Assembly (NCBI GenBank): GCA_903866275.1
Contig: CAIPMU010000014.1
Location: 1-64,000, forward strand
DNA length: 64,000 nucleotides
Source of the DNA: Vampirovibrio chlorellavorus
Lineage (GTDB): Bacteria; Cyanobacteriota; Vampirovibrionia; Vampirovibrionales; Vampirovibrionaceae
Reading direction: 5' to 3'
How positions within the stretch are numbered: position 1 is the first letter of the stretch; every line of letters begins with the position of its first letter. A program made the position numbers and the translations under genes. This document shows positions 354 to 21,799 of this stretch, in pieces. Below the pieces are notes generated by a model that saw nothing but the letters and a program-made list of their open reading frames with translations, was not told where the DNA came from and ran no database searches.

Positions 354-689
354 TTAAAGCTTTTTGGGAACAATTTTCACAAGAGAGGGTATCTCATGGC
401 AATAAACTATCTCATCAAAGGCACAGTAGCCAGCAAACTCGTCTTCTATTAGCAAGACACTGCCAACCCCAAGGACTTGTTGTTGATTGTTCTTACAAAC
501 TAATTGGATTTCTAAAGAGTCGGACAAGTTGCGAGAGGTAGAACTAAGAACCTCTCCCTTAATGGAGACTTCAAACTTTCCATCATACGGATCTGCTGAA
601 GTATCTACTAGAATGCCACATATAGTGATGCCATATGCTTGCTCAATGTTCTGCATACGTTCGTACGGTATGACTTGTTGTTTCAACAT
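354..689 (-). CDS. Hypothetical protein (111 aa)
   Basis: Intact ORF in AT-rich flank, not antisense to any better ORF; no family recognised. Confidence 0.5.
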   Translation of the reverse strand: MLKQQVIPYERMQNIEQAYGITICGILVDTSADPYDGKFEVSIKGEVLSSTSRNLSDSLEIQLVCKNNQQQVLGVGSVLLIEDEFAGYCAFDEIVYCHEIPSLVKIVPKKL

Positions 690-905: not shown

Positions 906-2561
906 ATGGCTGGCGCCTCAAATCCTTCCAAGAACAAAACAGCCTCGTTAGGCTTTGAGCAGCAGCTTTGGCTGGCGGCGGATAAGATGCGCGGCCATAT
1001 GGATCCTTCGGAATACAAGCATATTGCCTTAGGGCTGATATTCCTGAAGTATATTTCGGATGCCTTTGAGGAGCAGTACCAGAAGCTGAAAGCCCAAGAA
1101 GACGAGGGCGCAGATCCCGAGCATAAAGACGAATATCAAGCGGATAACGTGTTTTGGGTGCCGAAAGAGGCCCGGTGGCAGTTCATTCTGGATAAAGCCA
1201 AGACCCCTGAAGTAGGTAAACTTCTGGATGAGGCCATGCTGGCCATTGAGCGGGAAAACGTTTCTTTGAAAGGTATTTTACCGAGGGATTACAACCGGCC
1301 TACCTTGGATAAGCAACGCCTGGGCGAGTTAATCGATCTGATTGGCAATATGGGGCTGGGCGATTCTGTCAGCCGCCAAAAAGATTTGCTGGGCCGGGTT
1401 TATGAATACTTTCTTGGGCGCTTTGCGAGTGCCGAAGGTAAGGGCGGCGGAGAGTTCTATACCCCGCCTTCCGTGGTTCAGGTTTTGGTGGAAATGCTGG
1501 AGCCTTACAAAGGCCGCATCTATGACCCCTGTTGTGGTTCGGGTGGTATGTTCGTACAGTCTGAGAAGTTTATTTCGGCGCATGGTGGCGGCCTTGGAGA
1601 TATTTCTATCTACGGACAGGAGAGCAACCCGACCACTTGGCGCTTGTGCAAGATGAACCTTGCCATTCGCGGCATTGATGGGGATATTGGCAAGCAAAAC
1701 GCCGATAGCTTCCACAATAACTTGCATAAAGACTTGGTGGCTGATTTCATTCTGGCCAACCCGCCCTTCAATATTAGCGATTGGGGCGGTCAACACTTGC
1801 GGGATGATATCCGCTGGCAACATGGTACCCCGCCGGTGGGTAATGCCAACATGGCTTGGGTGCAACACATGGTACACCATCTTTCCCCCCGAGGGTTTGC
1901 CGGATTTGTTCTGGCCAATGGTTCTATGAGTTCCAATACCGGTGGAGAAGGTGAGATTCGCAAAAACCTGATTGAATCCAATCTGGTGGATTGCATGGTG
2001 GCTTTGCCTGGACAGTTGTTCTATACCACACAAATCCCGGTTTGCCTTTGGTTTTTGGCAAAAGACCGCAGTAATGGGCTCATCAAGTACCCCTACAATG
2101 GCGATGCCAAGCTGAGGGATCGCCGGGGAGAAATCCTCTTCATTGATGCCCGCAAGCTGGGCTATCTGGAAGACCGAGTACACCGCAACCTGAGCAAGGA
2201 AGACATTTATAAAATTGCTGATGCTTACCACGCTTGGCGAGGCGAGCCACTCAAAGATCCCTACAGACTGGATGAGCAAGGCAATCCTTTTCAAACGGAG
2301 TTCCCGGAAGGCTATCGGGACATTCCCGGCTTTTGCAAAAGTGCTACGTTGGAAGAAGTGCGCCAGCATGGCCATGTACTTACACCCGGCCGCTATGTGG
2401 GAGCAGCAGAGGAAGAAGAGGACAGTGAACCCTTTGCAGAAAAGATGACTCATCTAACGCAAACTTTGAAAGAGCAAATGGCCGAAGGTGCTAAACTAGA
2501 CTTTGAAATTAAAAAACAATTAGCTAAAATAGGGTTTAGCCTGGGCGGGAATCAGACATGA
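906..2561 (+). CDS. hsdM: Type I restriction-modification system methyltransferase subunit HsdM
   Basis: N-terminal HsdM helical domain ([36 protein letters not shown]), [30 protein letters not shown] motif, NPPF catalytic motif. Confidence 0.97.
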
Positions 2562-2983
2562 TTGATATTTCATCTTTAGAAAATGCCATTAAACAATTAG
2601 AAATCAGCCTTTCCTATACTGAATCTGATCTAGCGGAAAAAGATGGAGGCATTGCTTTACAGTTTCGAGCGGCCTCAATTCAAGCTTTTGAATATACTTA
2701 TGAGCTTGCACATAAGATGTTAAAACGCTATTTGGAAGATACAGAGCCTAGCCCGGACTTGATTGAGTCAATGACATTCCAAGAATTGATCCGTACCGGG
2801 GCTGAGCGTGGGCTCTTACTGAACTCTTGGGATATTTGGAAAGCTTATAGAAAAGCAAGAGGGTCGACTAGCCATACCTATAATGAAGATTCAGCAGTCA
2901 GCGTTTTCTCTAACATTCCACAATTCCTTGAGGAAGTTCGTTTTCTTCGTGATCAAATCAATACAAGACAACAAGCCAAATGA
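2558..2983 (+). CDS. HEPN-domain protein, HI0074/nucleotidyltransferase substrate-binding family (predicted HEPN toxin)
   Basis: 141 aa; [12 protein letters not shown]..., [26 protein letters not shown]4HXY motif R-GSTS-H-T-Y ([13 protein letters not shown]). Overlaps hsdM by ATGA. Confidence 0.9.
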
Positions 2984-4578
2984 TCGACTTAAAACCTAAA
3001 GATTTTGAAATCATTGCAGATATTATTAAACGTTATGTGCCGGATAGAAGGGTTGTAGCGTTTGGCTCACGGGTAAAGTGGACAGCGAAAACAGGATCGG
3101 ATTTGGATCTTTGCGTAATTGGCAAACATCCATTATCTTTGCAGGAAATAGCGAGCCTTGAAGAAGCCTTTTCAGAATCTGATTTGCCCATGAAAATAGA
3201 TGTAGTGGATTGGGCAACCATTAGTGAAGAATTTCGGAAAATCATTGAAAAAGATGCCGTTGAAATCCAAAAGCCTGTTGAAAAGTGGCATTCCATCAAG
3301 CTTTCTGATGCTTGCGTGAAAAATGGTGGTATTCAAACCGGCCCATTTGGAAGCCAATTACATCAAAGCGATTATGTGGAAACAGGCACTCCAATTATTA
3401 CGGTTGAGCATTTAGGGGATAATCGAATCACTCGTCAAAATCTCCCTCTTATTACCGATGCTGACCGGGATAGGCTCAAAAAATACTCGTTAAAAGCAGG
3501 TGATATTGTTTTTAGTCGAGTTGGTTCTGTCGATAGAAGGGCCTTAGTAAGAAAAGAAGAAGATGGTTGGCTGTTTTCTGGACGCTGCTTGAGAGTAAGA
3601 CTAGATGAAACTAAAGCTAATCCTGCATTTGTTTCTTTTCAGTTTGGTCTTGAGTCATTTAAAGAGTATATTCGCTCAATCGCAGTTGGGGCAACTATGC
3701 CCAGCTTAAACACCCAAATATTGAGTGACGTGCAAATCATTCTGCCATCTCTTGCTGAACAAAAATCAATAGCCAATATCCTTTCTGCCGTAGACGACAA
3801 AATTGAACTCAACCGGCGGATGAACGAAACGCTGGAAGCCATGGCCAAGGCGCTGTTTAAAAGCTGGTTTGTGGATTTTGACCCCGTTCGTGCCAAAACC
3901 GAAGGCCGCCAGCCGGAAGGTTTGGCTCCTGAAATTGCCGCACTCTTCCCTGATGGGTTTGTAGAGAGCAAGATAGGTCAAATCCCTATAGGTTGGTCAA
4001 TTGCAAAACTCGGCGAAGAATTTAATTTGACCATGGGACAATCACCGCCGGGTGAAACCTATAATGAACTTCAAATTGGCTTACCTTTCTATCAAGGCCG
4101 TACAGATTTTGGATTTCGTTATCCTTCTCCAAGGATATATTGTTCAGCTCCTACCCGCATTGCCGAAACAGGAGATACGTTAATAAGTGTACGCGCCCCC
4201 GTTGGTGATATTAATATGGCTTTTGAAAAGTGTTGCTTAGGACGTGGCGTAGCAAGTGTTAGGCATAAAACAGGTGCAATATCATACACTTACTATTCGC
4301 TTATAAATATTCAATCTTCTTTTAACTCATTTGAAGCTGAGGGAACTGTTTTTGGCTCTATTAACAAGAAAGACTTTGAATGCCTATCATTAATTACGCC
4401 TACAAAATCTTTAATTGATGAGTTTGAAAATATTATCATGCCGATTGATCTCAAAATACGGCTTGCCTCTGAACAAATAACATCACTTATTCAAATCCGG
4501 GACACTCTCCTTCCCAAGCTGATGAGCGGTGAGATTCGCGTTCAGGAGGCAGAGGCCTTGGTGGAGGCTATTGCATGA
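2980..4578 (+). CDS. hsdS: Fusion protein: N-terminal MNT nucleotidyltransferase domain (~100 aa) + type I restriction specificity subunit HsdS with two target-recognition domains
   Basis: N-terminus has GSRVKWTAKTGSDLDL (exact GSX10DXD MNT motif) and a later MKIDVVD. From EKWHSIKLSDAC onward it is HsdS: TGPFGSQLHQSDY, central LNRRMNETLEAMAKALFKSWFVDFDPV, distal LIQIRDTLLPKLMSGEIRV. One uninterrupted 532-aa ORF. Confidence 0.93.
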   Translation: MIDLKPKDFEIIADIIKRYVPDRRVVAFGSRVKWTAKTGSDLDLCVIGKHPLSLQEIASLEEAFSESDLPMKIDVVDWATISEEFRKIIEKDAVEIQKPVEKWHSIKLSDACVKNGGIQTGPFGSQLHQSDYVETGTPIITVEHLGDNRITRQNLPLITDADRDRLKKYSLKAGDIVFSRVGSVDRRALVRKEEDGWLFSGRCLRVRLDETKANPAFVSFQFGLESFKEYIRSIAVGATMPSLNTQILSDVQIILPSLAEQKSIANILSAVDDKIELNRRMNETLEAMAKALFKSWFVDFDPVRAKTEGRQPEGLAPEIAALFPDGFVESKIGQIPIGWSIAKLGEEFNLTMGQSPPGETYNELQIGLPFYQGRTDFGFRYPSPRIYCSAPTRIAETGDTLISVRAPVGDINMAFEKCCLGRGVASVRHKTGAISYTYYSLINIQSSFNSFEAEGTVFGSINKKDFECLSLITPTKSLIDEFENIIMPIDLKIRLASEQITSLIQIRDTLLPKLMSGEIRVQEAEALVEAIA

Positions 4579-5165
4579 GCGTAACAACCCCGCTTTTAAT
4601 TGTGATTGGTGGCCCCAATGGAGCAGGCAAAACCACGGCGGCCATGGCCGTATTGCCTGAAGCGCTTTCCTTGGTTGAGTTTCTGAATGCGGATGAGATT
4701 GCCAAGGGGCTTTCCCCGCTCAATCCCGGTTCGGTTGATATCCAAGCTGGCCGTCTTCTGCTAGAACGAGCGAACCACTTCCTTCAAAAGGGCACGCCCT
4801 TCGGCTTTGAAAGCACCTTGGCGGCATCCACCCCCATTAAGCTAATGAAAGCGGCCAAAGTAAAGGGCTATCAGGTGGTATTACTCTATTTTTGGCTATC
4901 CTCTCCCCAATTGGCCATGGAGCGAGTTCGGGAGAGAGTGAATAAGGGCGGGCATAACATCCCGGAAGCGGTCATTATGCGCCGCTATAACAGGAGTATC
5001 CAGAATTTAACCGCTAACTATATCCCTCTGGCCGATGTTTGGATGGTTTTTGATAACTCGAACGATAATCCTGCCCTGATTGCCGAGGGTGAGCAAGAAT
5101 CGGCAATGATTCACGTTTATAATGATAGTATCTGGCAGCAATTGATGAAAGGAGCCGAAACATGA
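4575..5165 (+). CDS. Zeta-toxin family P-loop kinase
   Basis: Walker A GGPNGAGKTT, FLNADEIAKGLSPLNPGSVDIQAGRLLLERA and GFESTLA zeta-like motifs; ATGA overlap with the fusion ORF. Confidence 0.85.
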   Translation: MSVTTPLLIVIGGPNGAGKTTAAMAVLPEALSLVEFLNADEIAKGLSPLNPGSVDIQAGRLLLERANHFLQKGTPFGFESTLAASTPIKLMKAAKVKGYQVVLLYFWLSSPQLAMERVRERVNKGGHNIPEAVIMRRYNRSIQNLTANYIPLADVWMVFDNSNDNPALIAEGEQESAMIHVYNDSIWQQLMKGAET

Positions 5166-5367: not shown

Positions 5368-8300
5368 ATGTCATTTACTGAAAGCGTGGTGGAGGATGCC
5401 AACCTAGCATGGTTGGAAGAGCTTGGCTATGAAGTGGTTTTTGGCCCTTCCATAGCGCCTGAGGAAATGTGGGCCGAGCGGGACAAGTATGAGCAGACCA
5501 TTCTGGTCAATCGGCTGAAACGGGCTTTGGAAACCATTAATCCGGGCATCTCACCGGAGCTGATTGAGGAATGTATTCGCCAACTCAACCGGCTGGAGCT
5601 TCCGAGCCTGATTGAAACTAATCGGGCCTTCTATGACCTGCTGATTAATGGCGTTTCCCTGGAAACCCGGCGGGAAGATGGCACGTTGGGCTTTGTGCCG
5701 GTGCATCTGGTCGACTTTGAAAACCCGGAGAATAACAACTGGCTGGCTGTAAATCAGTTTACAGTAATCCAAGGCCCTAAAAATAGGCGTCCTGATATCG
5801 TTGTTTTCCTCAATGGCTTGCCGGTCGCTGTTATTGAGCTTAAAAACCCCGGAGATGAGAACGCCACAATTAATAAGGCGTTTACACAGCTTCAGAATTA
5901 CAAAAACGATATTTCCTCGCTGTTCCATACCAATGGCCTGCTAGTCATCTCAGATGGGATGGAAGCGCGGGTGGGAACTATCTCTGCTGACTTTGAACGC
6001 TTCATGCCCTGGCGCACCATAGATGGTCAAACCATTGCCTCCAAGGGTATCTCTGAACTGGAAACCCTCATCAAAGGGGTATTCAATCAGCGGGTATTTC
6101 TGGACATGTTGCGCCATTTCAGCGTTTTTGAAGATGACGGCAAGAAAATCATCAAGAAAATCGCAGGCTATCACCAGTATCATGCGGTGAATAAAGCCAT
6201 TGAGCGCACTATTGAAGCCACTCAAGGCGAACATCGGGCCGGTGTCGTTTGGCACACCCAAGGTTCAGGCAAGAGCCTAACCATGGCATTCTATTCTGGC
6301 AAGGTCATTCAGCATCCGGCCATGAAAAACCCCACGTTGGTGATTCTCACGGATCGCAATGATCTCGATGATCAGTTGTTTGGCACGTTTGGCAATTGTC
6401 ATGAGCTGCTGAGACAAAAGCCCACGCAAGCTGATGATCGGGATGATATCCGAAAGTTACTACAAACTGGCTCGGGCGGCGTTATTTTTACCACCATTCA
6501 AAAGTTTTCCTTGCTGGAAGGGGAAAAAGAGTTTCCCAAGCTATCTGAGCGCTCTAATATCGTGGTGATTGCGGATGAAGCACACCGGAGCCAGTACGGC
6601 TTTAAAACCAAAATTGATGCAAAGACCGGCGAAAAGTCAGTAGGCTTTGCCGCTATGATTCGCCAAGCCTTGCCCAATGCCTCTTTCATTGGTTTTACGG
6701 GTACTCCGGTTGCTGGCACCGATAAGAATACTCAGCAGGTCTTTGGGGATTATATTGATATCTATGACATTCAACGGGCTGTTGAGGATGGGGCGACCGT
6801 TCGCATTTACTATGAAAGCCGCCTAGCCAAAATTGAGCTGGATGAGAATGAGAAGCCCAAGCTCGATGAAGACTTTGAGGAAATAACCGAAGGCGAGGAA
6901 GATAGCCGCAAGGAAAAAGAAAAATCCAAGTGGTCTCGCATGGAAGCCTTGGTGGGCGCTGAAAAGCGGGTAGATCTCATTGCTCAGGATATTGTGACCC
7001 ACTTTGAAGACCGCACGGCGGCCATGGCCGGAAAAGGGATGATTGTAGGCATGAGCCGCCGGATTTGTGTGGCCTTGTACGAAGCAATAAAGACACTTCG
7101 GCCTCACTGGCATAGTGATGATGATACCCAAGGGGCCATCAAGGTCATTATGACGGGTTCCTCTTCCGATCATGAGAACTGGCAAAGGCATATACGAAGC
7201 AAAGACCGGCGAGATGCTTTAGCCAAGCGCTTGAAAGACCCTAAAGACCCTTTGAAGCTAGTTATTGTTCGGGATATGTGGCTAACTGGCTTTGATGCCC
7301 CCTGTCTTCATACCATGTATGTGGATAAGCCCATGAAGGGCCATAACCTGATGCAGGCAATTGCACGGGTGAACCGAGTCTTCAAAGACAAGCAAGGTGG
7401 CTTGGTAGTCGATTATATAGGCATTGCCGACCTCCTCAAGAAAGCCTTGATGGAATACACCGAAGGCGACCGCAAAGAAGCGGGCATCCCTATTGAGGAT
7501 GCGATTGCTATCATGCTGGAAAAGCTGGAGCTGGCTCGATATCTCCTCAAAGCTTATGACTATACCAAAGGCTTGGATGGAACACCTTCACAACGTTTGA
7601 CCTCTATCGCAGAAGCCATGGAGCATATTCTCGGGCTGGATGACGGGAAGCAACGGTTTATGCAGATTGTGTTGGAGCTTTCTCACGGCTTTGCTTTGGC
7701 CTCCACTACGGATGAAGCCATAGAAATCCGGGATGTGGTTGGATTCTTCCAGACTATCCGTGCGGCCTTTGCGAAAAGTACCGCTGGAACTGGTAAGACC
7801 ATTGAGCAATTGGATACCGCACTTCAGCAAATTGTTTCTAAAGCCGTATCCTCCACTGAGATTGTGGATATTTTCTCGGCGGCTGGCCTGAAGACCCCGG
7901 ATATTTCTATTCTCTCGGATGAGTTTTTGGCCGAAGTGCAAGGCATGGAGAAAAAGAACCTTGCCTTGGAACTCCTACGAAAGCTTTTGACCGATGCCAT
8001 CAAGACCCGCGCCAAAAAGAACGTAGTGCAGGCCCGCAAGTTTTCTGAGATGCTGGAAAGCGCCATTAAGCGATACTATGCCAAGCAAGTGGAAACCGCT
8101 CAAGTGATTCAAGAGCTGGTGGAGATGGCCAAAGACTTTCAAGCCGCCAGTCGTCGGGGTGATGAATTAGGTCTTCAAGAAGATGAAGCCGCCTTCTATG
8201 AGGCTTTAGAAGTGAATGAGAGTGCTGTTTTGGAGCTGGGCGATGAGATTCTCAAGACCATTGCACGGGAGTTAGTGGCCACTGTGAAACGCACGGCCAC

Positions 8301-8466
8301 AATTGACTGGACAAAAAAGGAAAGCGTCCGGGCAAAGCTTCGGGTCATGGTTAGGCGAATACTGAGGAAGTATAACTATCCCCCTGATAAACAAGAAGCC
8401 GCCACTCAGACGGTTTTAGAGCAAGCTGAAGCTTTGACTGAGGAAGAATTGGGAAGTTACGCGTAG
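5368..8466 (+). CDS. hsdR: Type I restriction endonuclease subunit HsdR
   Basis: 1032 aa; PD-ExK nuclease region [21 protein letters not shown], Walker A THGSGKS-like [15 protein letters not shown]-box [17 protein letters not shown]. Confidence 0.97.
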
Positions 8467-8519
8467 GTCTTTAGTGGGCTACTAGACGACAGCTCTTCAC
8501 CCTATGGCCTTCTTTTAAA

Positions 8520-8537
8520 GAAGGGGCCTGCCCCTTC
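8520..8537. terminator. Hairpin between convergent hsdR and zorD (possible bidirectional terminator)
   Basis: Perfect 8-bp stem GAAGGGGC-CT-GCCCCTTC, preceded by ttcttttaaa and followed by aaagc. Confidence 0.5.
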
Positions 8538-8553
8538 AAAGCTAAGCAGAATT

Positions 8554-11500
8554 TTAAAGTGCCCCTACCGGAGCGTGTAGAGTCTTTAACAATAGAGCTA
8601 AATCTTCCATATTATCCAAACGTTCACTTTCTTTCTGTAGAATATCCTGAAATGTCAGATCAGAACTAGTAAGCATTGCCTGTATTTGATGTTTATCAAT
8701 GATTTTAATGCCAGCATCACTCAGAGAACGTTTTAATCCATTCTCAATTTCTAAAGGCGTAAAAAGGAGCATTTCAATAGATAGGCCAAGATCTGCAAGG
8801 TATCTGTTGCGATAATATGTTAAAGAGATCTTCATCTCTTCGGCAATATCAAGACTAAGCCCTTGATTGGCGGTAAAGGGTTTGCATATAAGTAATTGTG
8901 CCTGTTGGCCTTTATACAGAAGGGCATCTATGCCTCGGCTTGCCATAGTCGGGGGTAAAATTGTATTAAACCCTTGCTTGCCCATCAATGCTGCACAGAA
9001 ACTGGCAAATCGTTGGGAATCCAATTGTATCAAGTCGTTCATAGTGAAGTGCGGCCCACTTTCTGGGGCTACTTCTTTCGAGAAGATACTCATAAGGCTA
9101 CTGGTTACATCTAGTGCTGCAATCGGTGTAAGGATATCGCGTCGTAATTCGGACTTCTGCCTTAAAAGGGCGTCCAATTTTTGTTCGAAAGTTTCCTGGG
9201 TGGGGTCTGGAGCCCTTCCAATCGGATAGTAAACCTTAACTGGTCGTGTTTGCCCGATTCGATAGGCTCTACATGTGGCTTGGTCTTCCGTCGCTGGATT
9301 CCACCAACGCCCATAATGGATCACATGATTAGCTTCTACAATAGTAAGTCCGACTCCTGCCACATCAGGAGAAAGAATCAAAGCGTTAAAGCCAGCAGTC
9401 TCTTCAAATTCACGAATTAATCTAAAGCGATCGGACTCTTCGTCATTAGTACGCTTGTTTCCCTTGGTACTACCATTAATAATAGCAGCCTTAATCCCAA
9501 ATTTATACGCAAGCACTACTTTTAGAATATTCTGCATGGGTAATGAACGTGTAAAGATCAAGACTTTTTCGCCTTTTTCCTTGATGGTTTCCAAATGCTC
9601 ACAAACCACTTGGAGTTTAGGAGAATGGTCAATTAGCTGTTGTGGTGAATAATCAAGATCCATATTCATTAAAAGCAGAGGATGTTCATATAATTTTTTG
9701 AGTTGATGGAGTGCGATTAATGAAGCTCCTAGTTTTTCAGATTGCTGTGCTGTTTTTATAATAGCGGCCTGAAGTTGCCATTGTCTTTCTGAAACAGGGT
9801 AATAAAGACGAATTTCTTCTTTAGTAGGCAATTCATCGCTTCCCAAATAATCTTCTTTGTAGCGATTTAATACAAAAGTCCGATGTAGTTCACCCATGCC
9901 CAAACGATCTTTCAATGCTTGAGCACTGCCAGGTTCATTGTTTATAATTTTCTTTTCATATTGGTGTGCGAATTCTTTGTCAGTCCCTAATAAAGTACCT
10001 GGGCAGACAAAATCCATAATACACCACAGATCCATCAGTCCATTTTCAATGGGGGTGCCACTCATAGCAATCTTAAAACGAGCATTGGATGCTAATCCTT
10101 TCATTGCATGGGTGATAGCAGTTTTTTCATTTTTAAGTTCTTGAGCCTCATCGGCGATCACGATTGACCATTTTATTGTTTCGAAGGAGTGCTGGTAATT
10201 TTTAAGAGTGTCATAATTGGTAATAATGATTCTATTACGTTTTAGTTTCTCTAGATCGAGAACCGTTCTCCCAATTTTATATTCTCGTCCTTTGATAGTG
10301 GGATCTGCAATAAATTGTTTAATGCTTTTACTATTAAGAATGGCAACAGGCGAAAAAATACTGCCATTATTATCAAAGAACTTTTCGATCTCCTTTTTCC
10401 AATTTTCAAGGAGAATTAAAGGGGCAACAATAAGAATAGGTCGGCGAGGATCGTCATCAGAATTACGCTCTAATATATCAGGAAATGATTCTGGAGAGCC
10501 AGATTCGATTAGCCAAGCTAAAAATGTAAGCACTTGAAGCGTTTTACCAAGACCCATGTCATCGGCTAATAACACTCCCGATCGATGGGTTTTAAAGGAG
10601 CCTTGAAGCCAGCTCACGCCTTGTTGCTGATAAGGCTTCAGTTGAAATGGGGTCTCTTTGAATGTTGTTATTAGGTTTTTTGGAGGATGGTATGTTAATT
10701 CAATCGAACGGTGAACACCGAGGGATTCAGAATAAGCAAGAAAATCCTCGGAGTTTTCAGCGATATGGAGGAAGTAGTCTCCGCTTGACTTTTTCGTAGC
10801 AGTCGTTGAAGGTTCCGGCGTGTTTGCGTTTAAGTCTGAGATGTTGTTAGCGGTACGCTCTTTCCATTCGTTAATATTGCGATTCAGTTGGTCACATAAT
10901 CCTTCGGAAATCGGAACAAATAAAGTTTCCTTATTATCACCTTGGATAGGTATAGCAACTAACCCTTTTTTAAGCCCTTCGATTACATCGTAAAGGACAT
11001 TTTCTGCCTTCGCAACTGTATTTAGAGGGATGTTTATGTTGTTCCCACTGGGTGTTAAGGCATCAATATCTATATATAAGTCACTAGATTCATCATTTAG
11101 GAATTTAGGACGGTTTTCATTTTTAAGTCTAGGTATAGGGTGGAATATATAAGGGCCAATATCAATGACTCGATCACCAAAACCGTCCAGATTCTTTGAT
11201 GTATTTTGCAGAATCTCTGTGGCTGAATGATTATAGTGTTCACGCTCTCTTGAAAAAGAGTCCAATGAGATTCTGTCAGTGGCGCAAATTCCTTCAAATG
11301 CGGAAAGGGGATTCAGCATAATCTGATCCTTTGCAGGTCCCGAGATACTGGTTAAGTTTTCTCTCATATGCGTTAATGCGGTCTGAAGCTCTTCATTTAT
11401 AACCAACCTGATGCGTGCACCAGATGATGTCTTGACATCATAAAAAGGTTGGCCTTCAGCATGTTGATAAAAGGCTTGTTTCAGTACTTCCTCTTCTACA

Positions 11501-12198
11501 CCTTCAAACTGAGGAACGCAACTGATACGGCCTTCAGAATCTACTGTTAGGCCAATACTAAATTGCTCAGGGATCAGTGCCGTTTCATTGGCCATTGTTT
11601 TGGTCATGCTCACGGATTCAGGATCGCAAAAGAGCTTGATTTTTGAGAAATGACGAAGATTTTGGCCTTTCCCTTTGCTGGCAGTAGGGAGTTGGTTAAA
11701 TTCGTCAATTGACTCCAGAAGGTTGAAGATATCTTGAGGGAGTATATAAAGCTGTTTGCCAGTTTTCAAAAAACAACCGATCCGGGTTGGAAATACCTGT
11801 TTTGGACCGATAAAAAAAGAATATTCAAACAAAAGATCAGGGCTTGCCAAATGAAGTGTATTTTGAAGGTCTAAAGTAAATGGTGAAAAGCTTGGTAGTA
11901 ATTGAGCAAAGCCAAAATCTTCCCCATGCTCTTCTTCAGGGTTGAGCAAGTGATAGAACTGCTCATTAGTAATCAAAAGTGTTTGATCAGGTGCAATCTC
12001 TGCAATCCCAATAGAAAGAAAGGTAGGTAGCCACCGGAGGAGCTGTTTACCTAGTGGCGTATGAGCTGGGCTCTTTGTGCAGATGTCATCAATGTTTTCA
12101 TAGGAAAAGCCTACTGTTCCTTCAATTTGCAAGCCCTGATCGGTTATATTACAGTAGAGTTCAGAGTTGATTTCGGTTAAAAAAGTTTTCATTGACAT
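8554..12198 (-). CDS. zorD: Zorya type I protein ZorD: SNF2-family helicase with C-terminal Mrr-like/PD-(D/E)xK-like domain
   Basis: LLADDMGLGKTLQVLTF Walker A, IADEAQELKN, MSGTPIENGLMDLW, AYRIGQTRPVKVY. C-terminus has GIDALLYKGQQAQLLICKPF. Fourth gene of a zorABCD array. Confidence 0.92.
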   Translation of the reverse strand: MSMKTFLTEINSELYCNITDQGLQIEGTVGFSYENIDDICTKSPAHTPLGKQLLRWLPTFLSIGIAEIAPDQTLLITNEQFYHLLNPEEEHGEDFGFAQLLPSFSPFTLDLQNTLHLASPDLLFEYSFFIGPKQVFPTRIGCFLKTGKQLYILPQDIFNLLESIDEFNQLPTASKGKGQNLRHFSKIKLFCDPESVSMTKTMANETALIPEQFSIGLTVDSEGRISCVPQFEGVEEEVLKQAFYQHAEGQPFYDVKTSSGARIRLVINEELQTALTHMRENLTSISGPAKDQIMLNPLSAFEGICATDRISLDSFSREREHYNHSATEILQNTSKNLDGFGDRVIDIGPYIFHPIPRLKNENRPKFLNDESSDLYIDIDALTPSGNNINIPLNTVAKAENVLYDVIEGLKKGLVAIPIQGDNKETLFVPISEGLCDQLNRNINEWKERTANNISDLNANTPEPSTTATKKSSGDYFLHIAENSEDFLAYSESLGVHRSIELTYHPPKNLITTFKETPFQLKPYQQQGVSWLQGSFKTHRSGVLLADDMGLGKTLQVLTFLAWLIESGSPESFPDILERNSDDDPRRPILIVAPLILLENWKKEIEKFFDNNGSIFSPVAILNSKSIKQFIADPTIKGREYKIGRTVLDLEKLKRNRIIITNYDTLKNYQHSFETIKWSIVIADEAQELKNEKTAITHAMKGLASNARFKIAMSGTPIENGLMDLWCIMDFVCPGTLLGTDKEFAHQYEKKIINNEPGSAQALKDRLGMGELHRTFVLNRYKEDYLGSDELPTKEEIRLYYPVSERQWQLQAAIIKTAQQSEKLGASLIALHQLKKLYEHPLLLMNMDLDYSPQQLIDHSPKLQVVCEHLETIKEKGEKVLIFTRSLPMQNILKVVLAYKFGIKAAIINGSTKGNKRTNDEESDRFRLIREFEETAGFNALILSPDVAGVGLTIVEANHVIHYGRWWNPATEDQATCRAYRIGQTRPVKVYYPIGRAPDPTQETFEQKLDALLRQKSELRRDILTPIAALDVTSSLMSIFSKEVAPESGPHFTMNDLIQLDSQRFASFCAALMGKQGFNTILPPTMASRGIDALLYKGQQAQLLICKPFTANQGLSLDIAEEMKISLTYYRNRYLADLGLSIEMLLFTPLEIENGLKRSLSDAGIKIIDKHQIQAMLTSSDLTFQDILQKESERLDNMEDLALLLKTLHAPVGAL

Positions 12199-12212
12199 TT
12201 AATTGTAAACCT

Positions 12213-13586
12213 TTATGGTCTTATTCCATGGGCTGCCAGTACATTGGAAAGATTATCCAACCAAATATTTTGGTGATGAGGCACAGACTCTTTTGCCAGA
12301 GTTGGGTTTTTTAAAGAGCGAACATCAAAACTGCCAATTGTTTTTCCATTCTTTCCGGTGTATATAGATTGTGCATTATTTTGGAGTCTTAAAAAAGTAT
12401 CTTTTTCGTAGAGATAAGCACAGCCTACCCGCGAAAAATCTACAATCACATATTTTCCAAAATCAAGAATAAAGGCACTGTTATGGCTGGAATCCTTCTC
12501 AAGGGAGGCGTAATAATAGCCCTCTTTCTTCAGTTCACTTAATTGATATGTATTAGCACTATTATCACTAGGCCCAATGGCAATGGTAGAGCCTTTGATA
12601 CATTTTAAATAACGCAACCAAAAGCGTTTTCGCTTTTGCGTGTCATTTTTAATGATCATATTAAAAAAAAGTTCAATATCGGCTTGAGATAGCCATCCAA
12701 CAAAGGCTTCTCGGGCTCTTGCTTCAATATTCACCCACTTGCCTGGAGAGATTCGTGGGTCCCCATAAGCATTACTCGCTAGAAACCATCGCTGTAGAAA
12801 GCTAATGCCTTGTTCTCTTGCTTCAGCTGGATAGTTATCAACAAGTAATATCAGTTTGCTTAAAGTATCAAATTGTGTGGTTTCAATAAAATTGGAAAAT
12901 AAGTAAGTCCATTCGACAGGGTTAAAAGTATGGGACACTTGGATAATGCGTTTCAATAATTGCCCAACCACTTCATCACGGAGTGCTTCAGCGAATTGAC
13001 TAGTCGCTGAAAAGTAATAACGCTCTGCTGTTATCTCAAGGGTCTCACCCTTATGGATTACCGTAGGAGCTAATTGAGCTGGTCCTTCTTTAGCTAATAG
13101 GAACTCTTGATGCTCCTTCCAGGCTAATAGTTTCCTGTTTCGACCGTTATAGCGTCGTAGAAACCAAGCGAGAAAGTCCCGAATTAGAATATGGTTTTCG
13201 TTCGTTTTCCAAGTCTCATGGAATGCATTTTGAAAAGGCATAAGGATGCTGGGGGTGAAAATAGCCTGTCTGCGCTTTAGTAAACCTCTGATTTCTGGGC
13301 TTCTAATCACGGAAGATTGAGAGCAAAGTATACGGATTTCCCTGCGAGTTAATCGGTCAAAATCATCGGTCTTGATCGCCTCTGTCCATGCCTCTAACGC
13401 TTTTTCTCGCTGTTCTCCGGTGAACATTACCGTTTTAGTAAAGCCTGCTTTTTTTTCAAGATTCCTTTGAAATTTTTCAATCTCAGGACAAGCGAGAGTC
13501 ATTGTGGAGCGTGTTAAAAGATTTGAGAAACTCCTTAAATCCTGAAGTGTTTCAAGTAAAGGGTGCTGGCTTCTCGAATCAGTCAT
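12213..13586 (-). CDS. zorC: Zorya type I protein ZorC (EH-signature domain)
   Basis: 457 aa between ZorB and ZorD. EH-signature-like region FLQRWFLASNAYGDPRISPGKWVNIEARAREAFVGWLSQADIELFFNMI...RKRFWLRYL. Confidence 0.88.
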   Translation of the reverse strand: MTDSRSQHPLLETLQDLRSFSNLLTRSTMTLACPEIEKFQRNLEKKAGFTKTVMFTGEQREKALEAWTEAIKTDDFDRLTRREIRILCSQSSVIRSPEIRGLLKRRQAIFTPSILMPFQNAFHETWKTNENHILIRDFLAWFLRRYNGRNRKLLAWKEHQEFLLAKEGPAQLAPTVIHKGETLEITAERYYFSATSQFAEALRDEVVGQLLKRIIQVSHTFNPVEWTYLFSNFIETTQFDTLSKLILLVDNYPAEAREQGISFLQRWFLASNAYGDPRISPGKWVNIEARAREAFVGWLSQADIELFFNMIIKNDTQKRKRFWLRYLKCIKGSTIAIGPSDNSANTYQLSELKKEGYYYASLEKDSSHNSAFILDFGKYVIVDFSRVGCAYLYEKDTFLRLQNNAQSIYTGKNGKTIGSFDVRSLKNPTLAKESVPHHQNIWLDNLSNVLAAHGIRP

Positions 13587-13588
13587 TT

Positions 13589-14263
13589 TTATTCCACCGA
13601 TTGCTCGACAGCTTTCATTTGCTGTCTTTGTTCAACCGATTTTACCCGAATTTTGAATTCCACTCGACGGCTGGCGTCTTGGTTCTCTTTTTTATTTGTA
13701 TAAACGAGGTCGCGCTCTCCTCGGCCATTAGTAGAGGCAACATTGAGCAAGCAATCTCGCTCCTGTTTTAGCAAGTTAGTGTTATTTAGGGTGTACTTCA
13801 TGACTGCAAATGACCGATTTTGAGACAGCGAGAGGTTGTTTTCATCAGTGTCGCGAGAATCCGTAAAACCTTGAATGAAGACGGATTCCACATCTTTCTT
13901 ATATTCGGGGCTGCAAATAATGCCGGTTAAGCGTGGGCCAAGCCATTTTAAAAAATCTTGTCCGGTGGGCTTTATTTGGTCAGCTCCAGTATCGAAAGAT
14001 AAATGCTTATCTCTAACTCGCACAGTGCAAGAAAGTGGATCTTTTTTCTCGTCATATTCACATTCGATATTTTTAACTTTAAGTCCGGCATCAATTTTGT
14101 TTTTTAGAGCAAGTAATCTATTGTGGCTGCCTCGTTGTGTATCTTCGAAGTTCTGGTTCATATAACAGACAAGAAGCAAAATAAAAATTACTGCTAGAGA
14201 GGTCATCAAGTCAGTCATAGAGTGTGATAGTGGATCACCGGAATGCCGCTGTTTATTTTGCAT
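13589..14263 (-). CDS. zorB: Zorya protein ZorB (MotB/OmpA-like peptidoglycan-binding subunit)
   Basis: Single N-terminal TM with conserved Asp (SMTDLMTSLAVIFILLLVCYM) and an OmpA/MotB-like C-terminus (FIQGFTDSRDTDENNLSLSQNRSFAVMKYTL..ASTNGRGERDLVY..RRVEFKI). Confidence 0.92.
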   Translation of the reverse strand: MQNKQRHSGDPLSHSMTDLMTSLAVIFILLLVCYMNQNFEDTQRGSHNRLLALKNKIDAGLKVKNIECEYDEKKDPLSCTVRVRDKHLSFDTGADQIKPTGQDFLKWLGPRLTGIICSPEYKKDVESVFIQGFTDSRDTDENNLSLSQNRSFAVMKYTLNNTNLLKQERDCLLNVASTNGRGERDLVYTNKKENQDASRRVEFKIRVKSVEQRQQMKAVEQSVE

Positions 14264-16322
14264 GAGTTACAAGCTTTTTCTCTAACATGTCAGTCAGACT
14301 CGACAATTGATCGTCAAGGGTCTCCACCGTTCCTCCGAGCATATTTAAGGAGCCTTTTAAGTGAGCATCAAGATCGGTTGTATATGTCTGAATGCCAGCA
14401 TGAGTGGTATTGCTGTAGTCTTGAAGAGCTTTTTGAATTTGCGATAAAACGTTTCCTAGTGAGCTATCGAGTGTCTCATAGACTCTCCGCTGATTGACTT
14501 GGAGGTTTTCCAGGTCCTGAAGTAAGGTTGAGAATTGCGAGGTAATTGAAACCACTCGGTCCATGTTGTCTTTGAGATGCTGCCTACCATTGTCGGCCTC
14601 TTTAGATACAGCGCTGAGGTTATTAGTACTGGTCTCTAACTGAGAAATACTGCCTTGAAGTTGCCTGAAGAGGTTACTATTGCCTGCCAGAGCTTGATCA
14701 AATGATCCGGTAGACGCTTCCAGCTTTTGGCCCGCTATGCTCAGGCTGTCAGCTAAGGAGATTTGCTTATTTAAAATCTCTTCTAACGAGTTTCTGGATT
14801 TGGCCAACCATTCTTCATTCTGAGAATTTAATGCTTGATGATGCGCCGAAAGATGATTGGTTTGGGACTCTGTAGTTGTTTGTATTTGTTGTAAGAGGAT
14901 TTCAATGCTACTGGATAAGCCTTCTTGCTGGGTATTCGCAGAGCCTTCAATTTTTTGCACCAATTGCGCAACGGTATCAGATAAAGCTTGTGTCTGACTC
15001 AGTAGTTGCTCTTTCTGGTGATTATTAGAATCGCTAAAAGCACCAGTCATCTCCTGCATCCGCTCTTCCATTTGTGCACTCCATTGCGAGGTTTGTAGGA
15101 GTACGTTTTGAATGTTTTGTTGAAAGGCGTCCATAGAATCAGATGAAGATCCCGCCAATCGATCCATAATATGCCCCATCGCATCTTGTAATTCATTAGC
15201 ATGAGTACTCGATTGCTGACGTTGTTGATTTAGCGTATCTTCGAGCTGTTTGAACAGATTGCCCATGTAGTCGTCTAAAAGTTGATTTTTTGCATCTAAG
15301 CCTGCCAAAAATGTAGAGGCTTTGCTGAGAGATTCCGCTAAGCCTTGGATTTCTGAGTTTGCAGCGCCTGTCATTGATTGTCTAAACTCGTCCATGACTT
15401 CTTTCATGGTTGCTCCAAAGGACTCAGCTAATGTATCAGACTTTTGCTGTCTCAATGCTTCAGTAGTCTTATTTAGGTCTTCTATGGCTCTGATCATCTT
15501 ACCAATTTCAGGTGTTATATTCTGAGTAACACTTTCCGTAAGTTTTTCAGCAACAGTAAGACCAAACTCCTCTAATGGTTCTGTTTGTCGTTCTAGCTGG
15601 GTTAGCGATTCTGAAAGTAGCTTTTCTGAGGTAATGCGGGGAAAAATTTGATTCAAAGTATGCTGCACTGTATATAAATGTCGATTAAGACCGTTTAGGC
15701 AGACTGTTTCAGCTCCTGTAAATAGTAATGCGCCTAGTAGACCTACAATGGAAGAAGAAAATTTACCCGATAAACTGTTAATTAGGATATCAATTCCTTC
15801 AACCTTGCCGCCAGTCATGACATTCAAATGTGCCAGCCCTAGGAGCAGTGCGCAAAAAGTCCCCAATAACCCAAGTCCTGTCAAAATAGCTGGAATACTA
15901 GAAAGCCACCCAGGAATAGAATGATAGATGGTCTCTGGGGTGAAAAATGCTTCGGCCTGAAGTGTGTTGTGGAAGAAATAAGCATTCTTTCTTTTTAGCT
16001 TGATGATGGTTTCTTGCATCTCACTCCAAGAATACTTAAGAGAAGGTTTAGAAAGTAAGAATTCTCCAATAGCCTCATATTGTTCATCTGTGAGTACTTG
16101 CTCTTGGATCTGAGCATTTAAATCTTCAAGAAATCTTTTGGCACTGGTGAGCTGATGCTGTGTATCTACCCATGTTTTTACAAGTTGATAAAAGGAATAT
16201 ACAAAAATAATAATAGCTATAAATGAGATCGCTGTGGAAATAATTGGAATCTCAATACCCAGCCATGTAGATGCATAGGGCGTTGGCTTGGCGAAGGCAG
16301 ATAGCCAATTGTGAGCTTGCAT
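14253..16322 (-). CDS. zorA: Zorya protein ZorA (MotA/TolQ/ExbB-like channel with long coiled-coil tail)
   Basis: N-terminal TM region, SIPAILTGLGLLGTFCALLLGL and FSSSIVGLLGALLFTGAETV MotA/ExbB-type segments, ~450-aa Gln/Ser-rich coiled-coil C-terminus. Overlaps zorB. Confidence 0.92.
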   Translation of the reverse strand: MQAHNWLSAFAKPTPYASTWLGIEIPIISTAISFIAIIIFVYSFYQLVKTWVDTQHQLTSAKRFLEDLNAQIQEQVLTDEQYEAIGEFLLSKPSLKYSWSEMQETIIKLKRKNAYFFHNTLQAEAFFTPETIYHSIPGWLSSIPAILTGLGLLGTFCALLLGLAHLNVMTGGKVEGIDILINSLSGKFSSSIVGLLGALLFTGAETVCLNGLNRHLYTVQHTLNQIFPRITSEKLLSESLTQLERQTEPLEEFGLTVAEKLTESVTQNITPEIGKMIRAIEDLNKTTEALRQQKSDTLAESFGATMKEVMDEFRQSMTGAANSEIQGLAESLSKASTFLAGLDAKNQLLDDYMGNLFKQLEDTLNQQRQQSSTHANELQDAMGHIMDRLAGSSSDSMDAFQQNIQNVLLQTSQWSAQMEERMQEMTGAFSDSNNHQKEQLLSQTQALSDTVAQLVQKIEGSANTQQEGLSSSIEILLQQIQTTTESQTNHLSAHHQALNSQNEEWLAKSRNSLEEILNKQISLADSLSIAGQKLEASTGSFDQALAGNSNLFRQLQGSISQLETSTNNLSAVSKEADNGRQHLKDNMDRVVSITSQFSTLLQDLENLQVNQRRVYETLDSSLGNVLSQIQKALQDYSNTTHAGIQTYTTDLDAHLKGSLNMLGGTVETLDDQLSSLTDMLEKKLVTHAK

Positions 16323-17487: not shown

Positions 17488-18186
17488 CTAGTTTGGGGTG
17501 CTTTTCTTCTTTGGACGGTATCGCTTAATACCCATATTCATACTGATAAGGGCTTGGTTTATACTTTCAATACTGACTTTGTAAACTGTGCCATTGTAGG
17601 TATCTCTGGTCTGCAAGATGCCGTAATCGCACAAGCGTTTCAGTGCTTTATTGATCGTGGGTTCAGAAAGGCCAATACCTCCAGTCACATTGGGTATTCC
17701 TTTAGTAAAGTGTGTTTTACGTATTCTCTCTTGAGACTTACCCCACCCATAGGTTCTATCAACGATGAACTCAAGAACAATGCGTTCGTTAGGTTTCAGA
17801 AGAGGGTATAAAAATCGAGAGAAATATTTTCGGATCATGCATTCACAGATCTTGCTTTTAAGATCGTGGGTTTCATTGCCCCATCTTGGTTGCCGTGACT
17901 TTTTGTCGAAGCTCACAAACTGAAATTTATTACCCGGCAGAGAACGAATGCCAATACCGTAATGGGTGCATTCTGCATCCTCAGAAAATGGGGCTTCTTC
18001 ATCGCTGAGGTCATCATACTCTTCATAGTCGTATTCATCATCAGTATCAAAGGATTCTTCCAAACTTTCAGATATGATTCGCAGTTTTTCTTGATAAGGC
18101 TCAGGATCAGCCAGGATCATGTTCAGCTGTTCTTCGGTGCAGAGTTTTCTCAGTGCGTTTTTCATGGCAGGTGTAATAGGGATCAT
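17488..18186 (-). CDS. Winged-helix replication-initiator-like protein (phage RepO N-terminal-like) with acidic N-terminal region
   Basis: VLEFIVDRTYGWGKSQERIRKTHFTKGIPNVTGGIGLSEPTINKALKRLCDYGIL resembles phage replication protein O wHTH domains. Acidic stretch DTDDEYDYEEYDDLSDEE. Confidence 0.6.
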   Translation of the reverse strand: MIPITPAMKNALRKLCTEEQLNMILADPEPYQEKLRIISESLEESFDTDDEYDYEEYDDLSDEEAPFSEDAECTHYGIGIRSLPGNKFQFVSFDKKSRQPRWGNETHDLKSKICECMIRKYFSRFLYPLLKPNERIVLEFIVDRTYGWGKSQERIRKTHFTKGIPNVTGGIGLSEPTINKALKRLCDYGILQTRDTYNGTVYKVSIESINQALISMNMGIKRYRPKKKSTPN

Positions 18187-18848: not shown

Positions 18849-19415
18849 TTAAAGGCCTTTTAGCCTCATGTCATGCATTAAGTAGGGAGTATCTTTTCCA
18901 TTCAAGACGTTATTGCATGCTCTTTGGTAGTCGTCATCGCAATGTATTTTTTGACGCCAATCTTCAGTATTCTCTAAGTGCTTAAAAGGTGATTCATTAT
19001 ATTCTTTCCTTAAGCGTCCAGGCCATTGATCACAATGACCTTCAACGTTAGCTATAGTTAGCTTTGTGTCCTCAGCGACTTGTTTACAAGCTTTAATTTT
19101 CGAAAGCTCATATTTTTCCATGAGATAAACAACCATTCTTGCAACATCAAAGAAGATTTGTACTCGACCTGGCGTTCTTTGATGGGACTGGGTAAGTACA
19201 CTAATATCATTGTGTTTATCCAGCTTAATGGCTTTGTGGGAAAAATAAAGTAGAAATTCTTCAGGTATCATAGGAGAAGGCTCGACATAACGTGCTATTC
19301 GGCTGAAAATGAATTTAATGGCTTCTGGATCTCCATCATTTGCTCTAATACTTATTTCTTTAATTTCTGAGAAGCTGAGTATTTTATCCGGTTGGGGAAG
19401 GCCGCTATATGTCAT
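18849..19415 (-). CDS. Hypothetical protein (188 aa), overlapping the integrase stop
   Basis: Intact ORF, 4-bp overlap with the integrase gene; no family recognised. Confidence 0.6.
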   Translation of the reverse strand: MTYSGLPQPDKILSFSEIKEISIRANDGDPEAIKFIFSRIARYVEPSPMIPEEFLLYFSHKAIKLDKHNDISVLTQSHQRTPGRVQIFFDVARMVVYLMEKYELSKIKACKQVAEDTKLTIANVEGHCDQWPGRLRKEYNESPFKHLENTEDWRQKIHCDDDYQRACNNVLNGKDTPYLMHDMRLKGL

Positions 19416-20557
19416 GGATGCTTTTCCTTTTTGTATTCAAATTGTCGGGCATTCATTTTCTCCAAGACACTAACTGTATGCTGCTCACCAAGGTGGGCGT
19501 ACCGTTTTACCATTTGTAACTGCTTATGGCCAAGAACATCAGCTATTTCAAGTAGAGTGGCTCCCTCCATAGCAAGGTAACTAGCAGCTGTGTGGCGGAG
19601 ATCGTGAAAGCGAAAGTCTTCGATTTTGGCATCTTTGACCGCTTTTTCCCAATGTTTCCTTATCTCCATTGGCTTCTGGCCATCTTGACGAGGGAATAGA
19701 TAGGGTGTGTCGGTTCGTCTATTGCTTCTGAGTTGTTGAAGCTCTTCCCAGCCATGGCCAACAATGGGAATGGAGCGCCTTTCCCCATTCTTTGTTTTCT
19801 CAAGCCGGATCATTCGTTGTTGAAGGTCGATATTATCCCACTTCAGGTTTAAAAGTTCGCTCCAACGCGCTCCAGTTGATAAGGCAAGCACGACAAGCGG
19901 GTATAGAAAAGGGTGGATATCCTTTTTTTGGCATTGTGTGAGAAGGTCTTGTCTTTCCTCATTGGTCAGGAATCGGACTCGGCCTCTTGGCTCGATGGGC
20001 TTTCTCACTTTCAGCACAGGGTTTTCATCCATCCAGGCCCATTCTTTAACAGCATAGGAGACGGCGACCGACAAAGAACTGAGGTATCGTACCACTGTGG
20101 CAGGGCTTCTCAGCTTTTCCTTGGTTTTTGCTTTTTCAGATTTCTCCGTGAGGAGTTTATCTCGATACTCGGCTATTAAGGTTGGTCGAAGGTCATAGAG
20201 CTTGTAATATCCAAGATTTGCTTTCCACCACTCCAAGTGAAGCTTAATGTCGGCTTTTCCGGTACTTCTTTGGGGTAGAACATCAGAAATATAACGCTCT
20301 ATAAGGTCAGAGACGGTCTTTTTCTTTGACTGGCTTGTGCCGGAATGCTTGCCCTCCCGCATGGCTGCTTCTGTTTTCTGCATCCAGAGCTTGGCATCGG
20401 TCTTGCGTTCAAAGGTAGCAGTGGCAGGAGGATGACCTTTAATGCGAACTTCTACCGTATAGCGGGTTTGCCCAGCACTGTTTTTGCGTTCCTTAATGCG
20501 AGCCATTATGCATCTATCCTCTTGAGTCGTGTCCCATTCTTGTCCCATTTGTCCCAC
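19412..20557 (-). CDS. Tyrosine recombinase/phage-type integrase
   Basis: LSTGARWSELLNLKW, FRFHDLRHTAASYLAMEGATLLEIADVLGHKQLQMVKRYAHL: R...H-x-x-R...H...Y catalytic residues. Adjacent to a tRNA fragment. Confidence 0.96.
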   Translation of the reverse strand: MGQMGQEWDTTQEDRCIMARIKERKNSAGQTRYTVEVRIKGHPPATATFERKTDAKLWMQKTEAAMREGKHSGTSQSKKKTVSDLIERYISDVLPQRSTGKADIKLHLEWWKANLGYYKLYDLRPTLIAEYRDKLLTEKSEKAKTKEKLRSPATVVRYLSSLSVAVSYAVKEWAWMDENPVLKVRKPIEPRGRVRFLTNEERQDLLTQCQKKDIHPFLYPLVVLALSTGARWSELLNLKWDNIDLQQRMIRLEKTKNGERRSIPIVGHGWEELQQLRSNRRTDTPYLFPRQDGQKPMEIRKHWEKAVKDAKIEDFRFHDLRHTAASYLAMEGATLLEIADVLGHKQLQMVKRYAHLGEQHTVSVLEKMNARQFEYKKEKHP

Positions 20558-20661: not shown

Positions 20662-20711
20662 ACAGATTCGTAAACTGTAGGTCGCCGGTTCGATTCCGGC
20701 CATCGGCTCCA
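20662..20711 (+). tRNA. 3'-partial tRNA-Thr(CGT) fragment (anticodon arm to CCA): putative att site, not a complete tRNA
   Basis: acagaTTCGTAAactgt aggtc GCCGG-TTCGATT-CCGGC catcggc T CCA. No 5' half (GCCGATG...) upstream. Confidence 0.85.
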
Positions 20712-20721
20712 GTATTTTGAA

Positions 20722-20824: not shown

Positions 20825-21799
20825 TTGCCAGTGTTAACTATTTGTCCCATTTCGGGAGATCAAACGAATGAAAAATCGACAGATGGGGATTATAGGGATA
20901 TAGCCTGTCCAAGTTGCGGTGAGTATAAGATTTCTGGCTCCTTAGCGGTATCCTTGCCAATGGACAGCAACATTAACACACGGGAGCGGGCGATTCTTAG
21001 CCATTACATCAGGCAGAAAAATGAAGCAAAGGAACACCCCTTTTTCAGGGGAAATTTAATTGACCGGATTATTCAAGAGCACGCACTTCCTGAACTGCCA
21101 GAGCAAATTGATAATTTGGTTCTTTATTTAGGACGAAATACTAATATTGGACAAACTGCGCCTTTTCATATTTCTGCATTGAAAGCGGTGGCTGGAGCTT
21201 TAGATGATAGGAATATATCATTTGTTTGTAGTTGTCTTTTTGAGCAAAACTATTTAGTAACAGGCCATAAGCATCTAATTTTCACTAATGGTCAGGCAGC
21301 TTTAGGTCTTCATATGAAAGGTTGGCAGAGGTACTATGAATTGGAGAAAGGTAAGGTTGACCATCGCTTAGCCTTTATGGCGATGCCTTTCAGGAATGAC
21401 CGATTGGATGAAATTTATTTGAAATGGTTTAAACCTGCTTGTAGAGCGGTAGGGTTTGAGCTTCGGCGAGTCGATGAAAGACCAGAAGCAGGAATTATCA
21501 ATAACAAAATGTTGGTTGATATTCGTAAATCCCGTTTTGTTATTGCAGAACTCACAACAGAAAATAGAGGGGTATATTGGGAGGCAGGTTTTGCTGAAGG
21601 AATGAATAGGCCAGTTATTTATACTTGTGATGAGGAGTATAAGAAGAATAACCCTCTCCACTTTGATATACAGCAGCATCATACTGTATTTTGGGAAGAT
21701 ACTAATATGTTAGATGCTGCTAAAAGGCTGGTCGTTACTATACAGGCAACAATTCCTGAAGCGAAGTCGATAGATGTCGATGAAATAGTCTGGGATTAG
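20825..21799 (+). CDS. TIR-like / nucleoside 2-deoxyribosyltransferase-like domain protein with N-terminal CPxCG motif (putative defence effector)
   Basis: RLAFMAMPFRNDRLDEIYLKWFKPACRAVGFELRRVDERPEAGIINNKMLVDIRKSRFVIAELTTENRGVYWEAGFAEGMNRPVIYTC: AMPF start, D-xx-I..R-FV-IAELT, YWEAGFA pattern of NDT/TIR-like folds. N-terminal CPSCGEYKISG. Confidence 0.65.
   Translation: MPVLTICPISGDQTNEKSTDGDYRDIACPSCGEYKISGSLAVSLPMDSNINTRERAILSHYIRQKNEAKEHPFFRGNLIDRIIQEHALPELPEQIDNLVLYLGRNTNIGQTAPFHISALKAVAGALDDRNISFVCSCLFEQNYLVTGHKHLIFTNGQAALGLHMKGWQRYYELEKGKVDHRLAFMAMPFRNDRLDEIYLKWFKPACRAVGFELRRVDERPEAGIINNKMLVDIRKSRFVIAELTTENRGVYWEAGFAEGMNRPVIYTCDEEYKKNNPLHFDIQQHHTVFWEDTNMLDAAKRLVVTIQATIPEAKSIDVDEIVWD

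Follow-up and report, generated by a model that had tools for sequence, protein, structure and literature searches.

Positions 8554 to 16322 of the analysed window, a 64,000-nucleotide stretch of DNA from a bacterium of the genus Vampirovibrio (assembly GCA_903866275.1, contig CAIPMU010000014.1, positions 1 to 64,000), very probably carry an intact operon, zorABCD, for a type I Zorya system, which lies together with a type I restriction-modification (R-M) system on an island of about 21.5 kb that bears an integrase and occupies a tRNA-Thr(CGT) gene. Protection against phages by this operon is predicted from the studied homologues.

Gene content and family placement of the Zorya operon

The operon encodes, on the minus strand, the MotA/ExbB-like motor subunit ZorA (14253..16322, 689 aa); ZorB (13589..14263, 224 aa), with one transmembrane (TM) helix and an OmpA-like peptidoglycan-binding domain; ZorC (12213..13586, 457 aa), with the EH_Signature domain at residues 58-444; and ZorD (8554..12198, 1214 aa), with an N-terminal region and an SNF2 ATPase part at residues 523-1026. 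All four open reading frames (ORFs) are intact, without internal stops, and form one tight, near-contiguous operon, where zorB overlaps zorA by 11 bp, and the gaps zorB/zorC and zorC/zorD amount to 2 and 14 bp, respectively. An order of this kind is very far from what chance would give, and three other genomes of the class Vampirovibrionia share it.

The initial annotation had described a complete type I Zorya with the four parts in canonical order, and this description is borne out by the profile hidden Markov models (HMMs), which place all four proteins, the best matches in PADLOC, the check proposed there, being ZorA1 (8.2e-40, spanning residues 27-676), ZorB1 (6.4e-42), ZorC1 (9.2e-19) and ZorD1 (6.4e-194). 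ZorA is supported at the subfamily level, with 101.9 bits for NCBIfam NF033915 at the cut-off of 100. ZorB gives 43.3 bits with Pfam OmpA at residues 90-199, above the cut-off, and ZorD 158.4 bits with Pfam SNF2-rel_dom, in agreement with the annotated SNF2 character of this protein. The 457-aa protein, whose failure to be placed by HMMs in the EH-signature/ZorC family was named as a refutation, scores 117.7 bits with EH_Signature (PF15611) at the cut-off of 27.5. Its AlphaFold model, built on 14 homologues with a mean pLDDT of 83, has as the sole PDB match under E=0.001 the ZorC structure 8r68 (E=2.4e-7, probability 1.00), so that the fold agrees. The type II/III components, ZorE (HNH) and ZorF/ZorG, were also sought, and no match to HNH, DUF3348 or DUF2894 was found among the four Zor and the scanned flanking proteins; the operon carries ZorC and ZorD, i.e., not the type II/III effector set.

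Among the characterised systems, the type I Zorya of E. coli (ZorAB 8qyd/8qyk, ZorD 8qy7, ZorC 8r68) resembles the present one in the gene set and order, in the equivalents of the residues T147, S184 and D26, in the SNF2 core (the best PDB match of ZorD, 2e-87) and in the ZorC fold, but the copy described here is divergent overall. Three points weigh against the assignment as a whole. The NCBIfam equivalog cut-offs are missed by all four proteins (ZorA1, ZorB1, ZorC, ZorD), which marks a divergence from the proteobacterial type; the Mrr-like C-terminal domain of ZorD is degenerate; and the joining of the contigs C7 and C14, on which the island length depends, rests on a shared 141-bp end of an insertion sequence (IS), present also at the start of the contig C15.

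The ZorA-ZorB motor and the C-terminal domain of ZorD

By hydropathy, the TM segments of ZorA lie at about 23-52, 145-163 and 191-209, with none in the cytoplasmic tail, which covers about residues 229-689 (461 aa) and thus confirms the long tail of the initial annotation. The best PDB sequence matches of ZorA are 8vvn of Shewanella (9e-15) and 8qyk of E. coli (2e-10), with 8qyd of E. coli also found. Through these alignments T155 corresponds to T147 and S191 to S184 of E. coli ZorA, and both residues, invariant in the four Vampirovibrionia copies, would provide the Ser/Thr ring facing the ZorB aspartate. The residue 190, adjoining S191, is Ser here, Thr in Shewanella and Gly in E. coli, so that S190-S191 stand in place of the T-S pair of Shewanella sp. 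ANA-3. The single TM helix of ZorB (15-33) holds D18, aligned with D26 of E. coli, within the motif SMTDLMTSLAV, which is invariant in four relatives; the best PDB matches of ZorB are 8vvi, 8qyd_F and 8vvn_B. The E. coli residues T147 and S184 of ZorA and D26 of ZorB are known from mutants, and their equivalents here were assigned from the PDB sequence alignments. The loss of conserved channel residues, named as a second possible refutation, was not what was found, and both the tail length and the ZorB aspartate, proposed for comparison with the characterised systems, match them.

In the OmpA-like domain, ZorB keeps T134, L146, R150 and RR199-200, the first three of which would correspond, as mapped by spacing, to T187, L199 and R203 of Serratia (PMC11890865). 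Zorya defence has been shown to need the ZorB aspartate, the ZorA tail and peptidoglycan binding (PMC11890865). In Shewanella ANA-3, whose ZorA is the best match of the one described here, the tail covers about 236-696 (unresolved in the structure) and is likewise about 460 aa long (PMC11890865). The solved type I motor of Shewanella binds Na+ (PMC11890865), and the proton-driven character ascribed by the initial annotation to Zorya is therefore an assumption for this copy and not established.

According to the mechanism described for the studied homologues (PMC11890865; reviewed in PMC12904381), five ZorA and two ZorB subunits would form an ion-driven motor in the inner membrane. An injecting phage would perturb the cell envelope, upon which the ZorB domain may grip peptidoglycan, and the ion flow past D18, T155 and S191 would rotate ZorA with its tail, which would signal to ZorC and ZorD for action on the incoming DNA.

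ZorD, the best PDB match of which is E. coli ZorD (8qy7, 2e-87), keeps intact the motifs DDMGLGKT, DEAQ, SGTPIEN, WWNP and EDQATCRA. It extends about 190 residues past the SNF2 part. The E. coli protein, of 1080 aa, has only about 15 residues beyond the aligned SNF2 part. The extension contains a Mrr-like domain of the restriction-endonuclease fold (8557..9054, minus strand, residues 1049-1214), recognised from the alignment, Pfam Mrr_cat, the AlphaFold model and the fold match. Eight relatives, which belong to Vampirovibrio, other Cyanobacteriota, Nitrospirota and genomes of the Acidobacteriota type, have the motif FE...D...(Q/E)xK in the ZorD tail. Here two of the four motif residues are lost, with A1065 for the Glu and I1104 for the Gln/Glu, while D1091 and K1106 are kept. 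With Pfam Mrr_cat (PF04471), the domain scores 15.1 bits, below the cut-off of 21, whereas the relatives scanned, seven out of seven, are above it with 34-62 bits. A sequencing error behind the degenerate motif is unlikely, the codon of I1104, ATA, being more than one change away from any Gln or Glu codon. The AlphaFold model of the domain (pLDDT 91) matches proteins of the restriction-endonuclease fold, with 1y88 first, so that the fold is present and the catalytic E...D...(Q/E)xK set is not. The domain is thus probably folded and catalytically inactive, as judged from the sequence and the model. The ZorD copies of V. chlorellavorus NCIMB 11383 and REEB446 keep D...QxK and FE, unlike the present one; in another copy, L040, the motif is likewise altered; and ZorD of Vampirovibrio DET50b (1087 aa) lacks the domain. 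Because the ZorD proteins of E. coli and DET50b do without the Mrr-like domain, it does not define type I Zorya.

The loss of two catalytic-motif residues and the score below the Mrr_cat cut-off might be read as a sign of a decaying system, whose protection is gone with the inactivated nuclease-like domain of ZorD and which is on its way to being lost. However, the four ORFs are intact, tightly packed and without stops, the SNF2 motifs and the channel residues are retained, as is the fold even of the degenerate domain, and this domain is not required, as its absence from E. coli and DET50b ZorD indicates, so that its degeneration need not kill the system. Decay is for these reasons an unlikely explanation. 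In an intact Zorya with a dead nuclease-like domain, the DNA damage would come from the SNF2/N-terminal part of ZorD, as it must do in the domain-less ZorD of E. coli.

The mobile island and the neighbouring restriction-modification operon

The R-M and Zorya genes lie on a low-GC island in tRNA-Thr(CGT), about 21.5 kb long if the contigs are joined directly. It includes a tyrosine recombinase (integrase; 19412..20557, minus strand; Pfam Phage_integrase 112.6 bits, phrog_1 241 bits) and a winged-helix protein of a mobile element, similar to phage replication protein O (17488..18186, minus strand; Pfam Phage_rep_O 7e-6, just below the cut-off; phrog_678). The attR site (20667..20714, plus strand), adjoining the integrase, repeats the 3' part of tRNA-Thr(CGT) exactly and in direct orientation over 48 bp, and the same 48 bp, as attL, lie within the intact tRNA-Thr gene of the same genome (C7:907-982), beside an ldpA-like gene. 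The empty site is seen in V. chlorellavorus, with an intact tRNA-Thr between an ldpA-like gene and a homologue of the window ORF 20825-21799. The IS5-like end at the contig end (1..141, plus strand), identical to the end of the contig C7, marks an assembly junction inside the island. The chromosome has a GC content of 0.55, against 0.47 in the R-M module and 0.41 in both Zorya and the mobile genes. The initial annotation had joined the two modules into one defence island by the spacing of their stops; the island itself stands, on the ground of the att-bounded tRNA-Thr element, and the 87-bp spacing as the reason for it does not.

Just outside attR, the ORF 20825-21799 encodes a low-GC protein of 324 aa with a weak nucleoside-deoxyribosyltransferase-like C-terminus. 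Its homologue occupies the same place beside tRNA-Thr of V. chlorellavorus (L111), and the gene therefore precedes the island.

The R-M operon, on the plus strand, comprises the type I methyltransferase gene hsdM (906..2561; Pfam N6_Mtase 357 bits, HsdM_N), a HEPN gene of the HI0074-like type (2558..2983; Pfam PF08780 101 bits, NCBIfam TIGR01987 above the cut-off), a fusion of a nucleotidyltransferase (MNT) with HsdS (2980..4578; Pfam Polbeta at 12-94, Methylase_S), a zeta-toxin-like AAA_33 kinase gene (4575..5165; Pfam Zeta_toxin 43.7 bits) and the restriction subunit gene hsdR (5368..8466; PADLOC REase_I 1190 bits, NCBIfam hsdR 643 bits). HsdM, HsdS and HsdR are all above the Pfam cut-offs of a type I system, with the MNT domain as an extra N-terminal part of HsdS. 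The operon had been annotated as HsdMSR; these three subunits are present, but the arrangement is not a plain hsdMSR, the order being hsdM - HEPN - (MNT::hsdS) - zeta-like kinase - hsdR. Upstream of hsdM lies an ORF of 111 aa (window 354-689) with no Pfam or PHROG match.

The adjacent HEPN and MNT (HepT/MntA-like) genes contain the motifs RGSTSHTY, of the form R-x4-H-x-Y, and GSRVKWTAKTGSDLD, of the form GSx10DxD, which agree with the definitions Rx4-6HxY for HEPN and GSx10DxD for MNT. From these motifs, the HEPN protein would be a putative toxin and the MNT domain its putative antitoxin (2558-4578). The HEPN motif has been defined in the literature as Rx4-6H (PMC3710099). The GC content at third codon positions (GC3) is 0.32-0.34 in the HEPN and MNT-hsdS genes versus 0.54-0.55 in hsdM, the kinase gene and hsdR, which suggests that the pair is a swapped cassette. 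The same pair, with 43% identity, is present on the Zymomonas mobilis plasmid pZMOB01 (L139), and the view of the fusion as unique was dropped; a description of the MNT-HsdS fusion was not found in the literature search.

A broader reading, which we regard as speculative and rather improbable in its entirety, would make the dead but folded domain of ZorD a DNA- or partner-binding part, with the nuclease domain an exchangeable and dispensable accessory of type I systems, and the HEPN toxin with its HsdS-fused MNT antitoxin a booby trap, sprung once the R-M complex has been put out of action.

The tail-to-tail arrangement of the two operons, annotated with about 87 bp between the stops, is exact, the gap (8467..8553) between the hsdR stop at 8466 and the zorD end at 8554 being 87 bp. 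An intrinsic terminator was not found in this gap by the site scan, and its RNA folding is no better than that of shuffled sequences. The close spacing within one att-bounded element and the presence of a type III-like R-M pair at a distance of about 4 kb from the Zorya of REEB446 might indicate that R-M and Zorya work as one coupled defence unit of the island, in which, for example, the R-M fragments feed ZorD. However, 14 other loci with type I Zorya showed no hsd gene in their available flanks, which reached up to 10 kb in each direction, the R-M system beside the REEB446 Zorya is of a different type, and the unlike GC and GC3 of the two modules suggest separate origins. A conserved coupled unit was accordingly rejected, functional coupling is not supported by these loci, and coupling appears improbable. 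The neighbourhood reflects the general clustering of defence genes in islands, with no indication of synergy in this analysis, and Zorya and R-M would most likely act as independent layers.

Relatives and significance of the Vampirovibrionia Zorya

The zorABCD order, found in four of the genomes examined, is the same in V. chlorellavorus NCIMB 11383 (L016/L029), Vampirovibrio DET50b (L017/L028), REEB446 (L018/L049) and other named genomes, and the ZorB protein described here is 41-56% identical to those of the three strains. In V. chlorellavorus an integrase adjoins zorD, and no hsd genes were found in the flanks searched. The EH_Signature proteins occur in 8 of the 240 genomes of the class, seven of them above the cut-off, and this patchy spread fits horizontal transfer. 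The scan of genome contigs with ZorC only gave no confirmed relative; relatives were found by the ZorB alignment. The DET50b genome also contains a second, broken zorB/zorC-like remnant (L019, 13626-14253), which suggests a decayed second Zorya, and the ORF beside it (12228-13193) has a start identical to that of another ORF (L017, 17352-18317), possibly of a transposase.

ZorB-like genes were also observed in 33 Nitrospira-type loci (L058, L060-L073, L075-L086, L088-L090, L092, L095, L100), nearly all with an adjoining ZorA-like gene, mostly of about 400-450 aa with a short tail. They adjoin the convergent rsmA (ksgA) and pdxA, and larC too where the contig reaches, with no ZorC or ZorD in the flanks, and are apparently a conserved chromosomal motor without effectors. 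That the zorAB pair of the window is likewise a housekeeping motor of the Mot/Tol/Exb type with an SNF2 gene beside it by chance was rejected and can be practically dismissed, for despite the homology of ZorAB to MotAB and the stand-alone pairs of Nitrospira, ZorC (EH_Signature) and ZorD belong to the same operon of overlapping or near-contiguous ORFs, the best PADLOC matches are ZorA1 and ZorB1, the long tail is specific to Zorya, and the locus is on a mobile island.

A mention of Zorya together with Vampirovibrio was not found in the literature search, and with the present locus the occurrence of a complete type I Zorya in Vampirovibrionia is firmly established. The genus that carries it is known to prey on algae, and the system is seen travelling on a tRNA-targeting island. 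Apart from the variation of the C-terminal domain of ZorD, it is an ordinary Zorya of a known type, and the probably dead nuclease domain is its main oddity. As this domain is absent, intact or degenerate among the related systems, they make it testable whether it is the DNA-damaging part of Zorya or an accessory.

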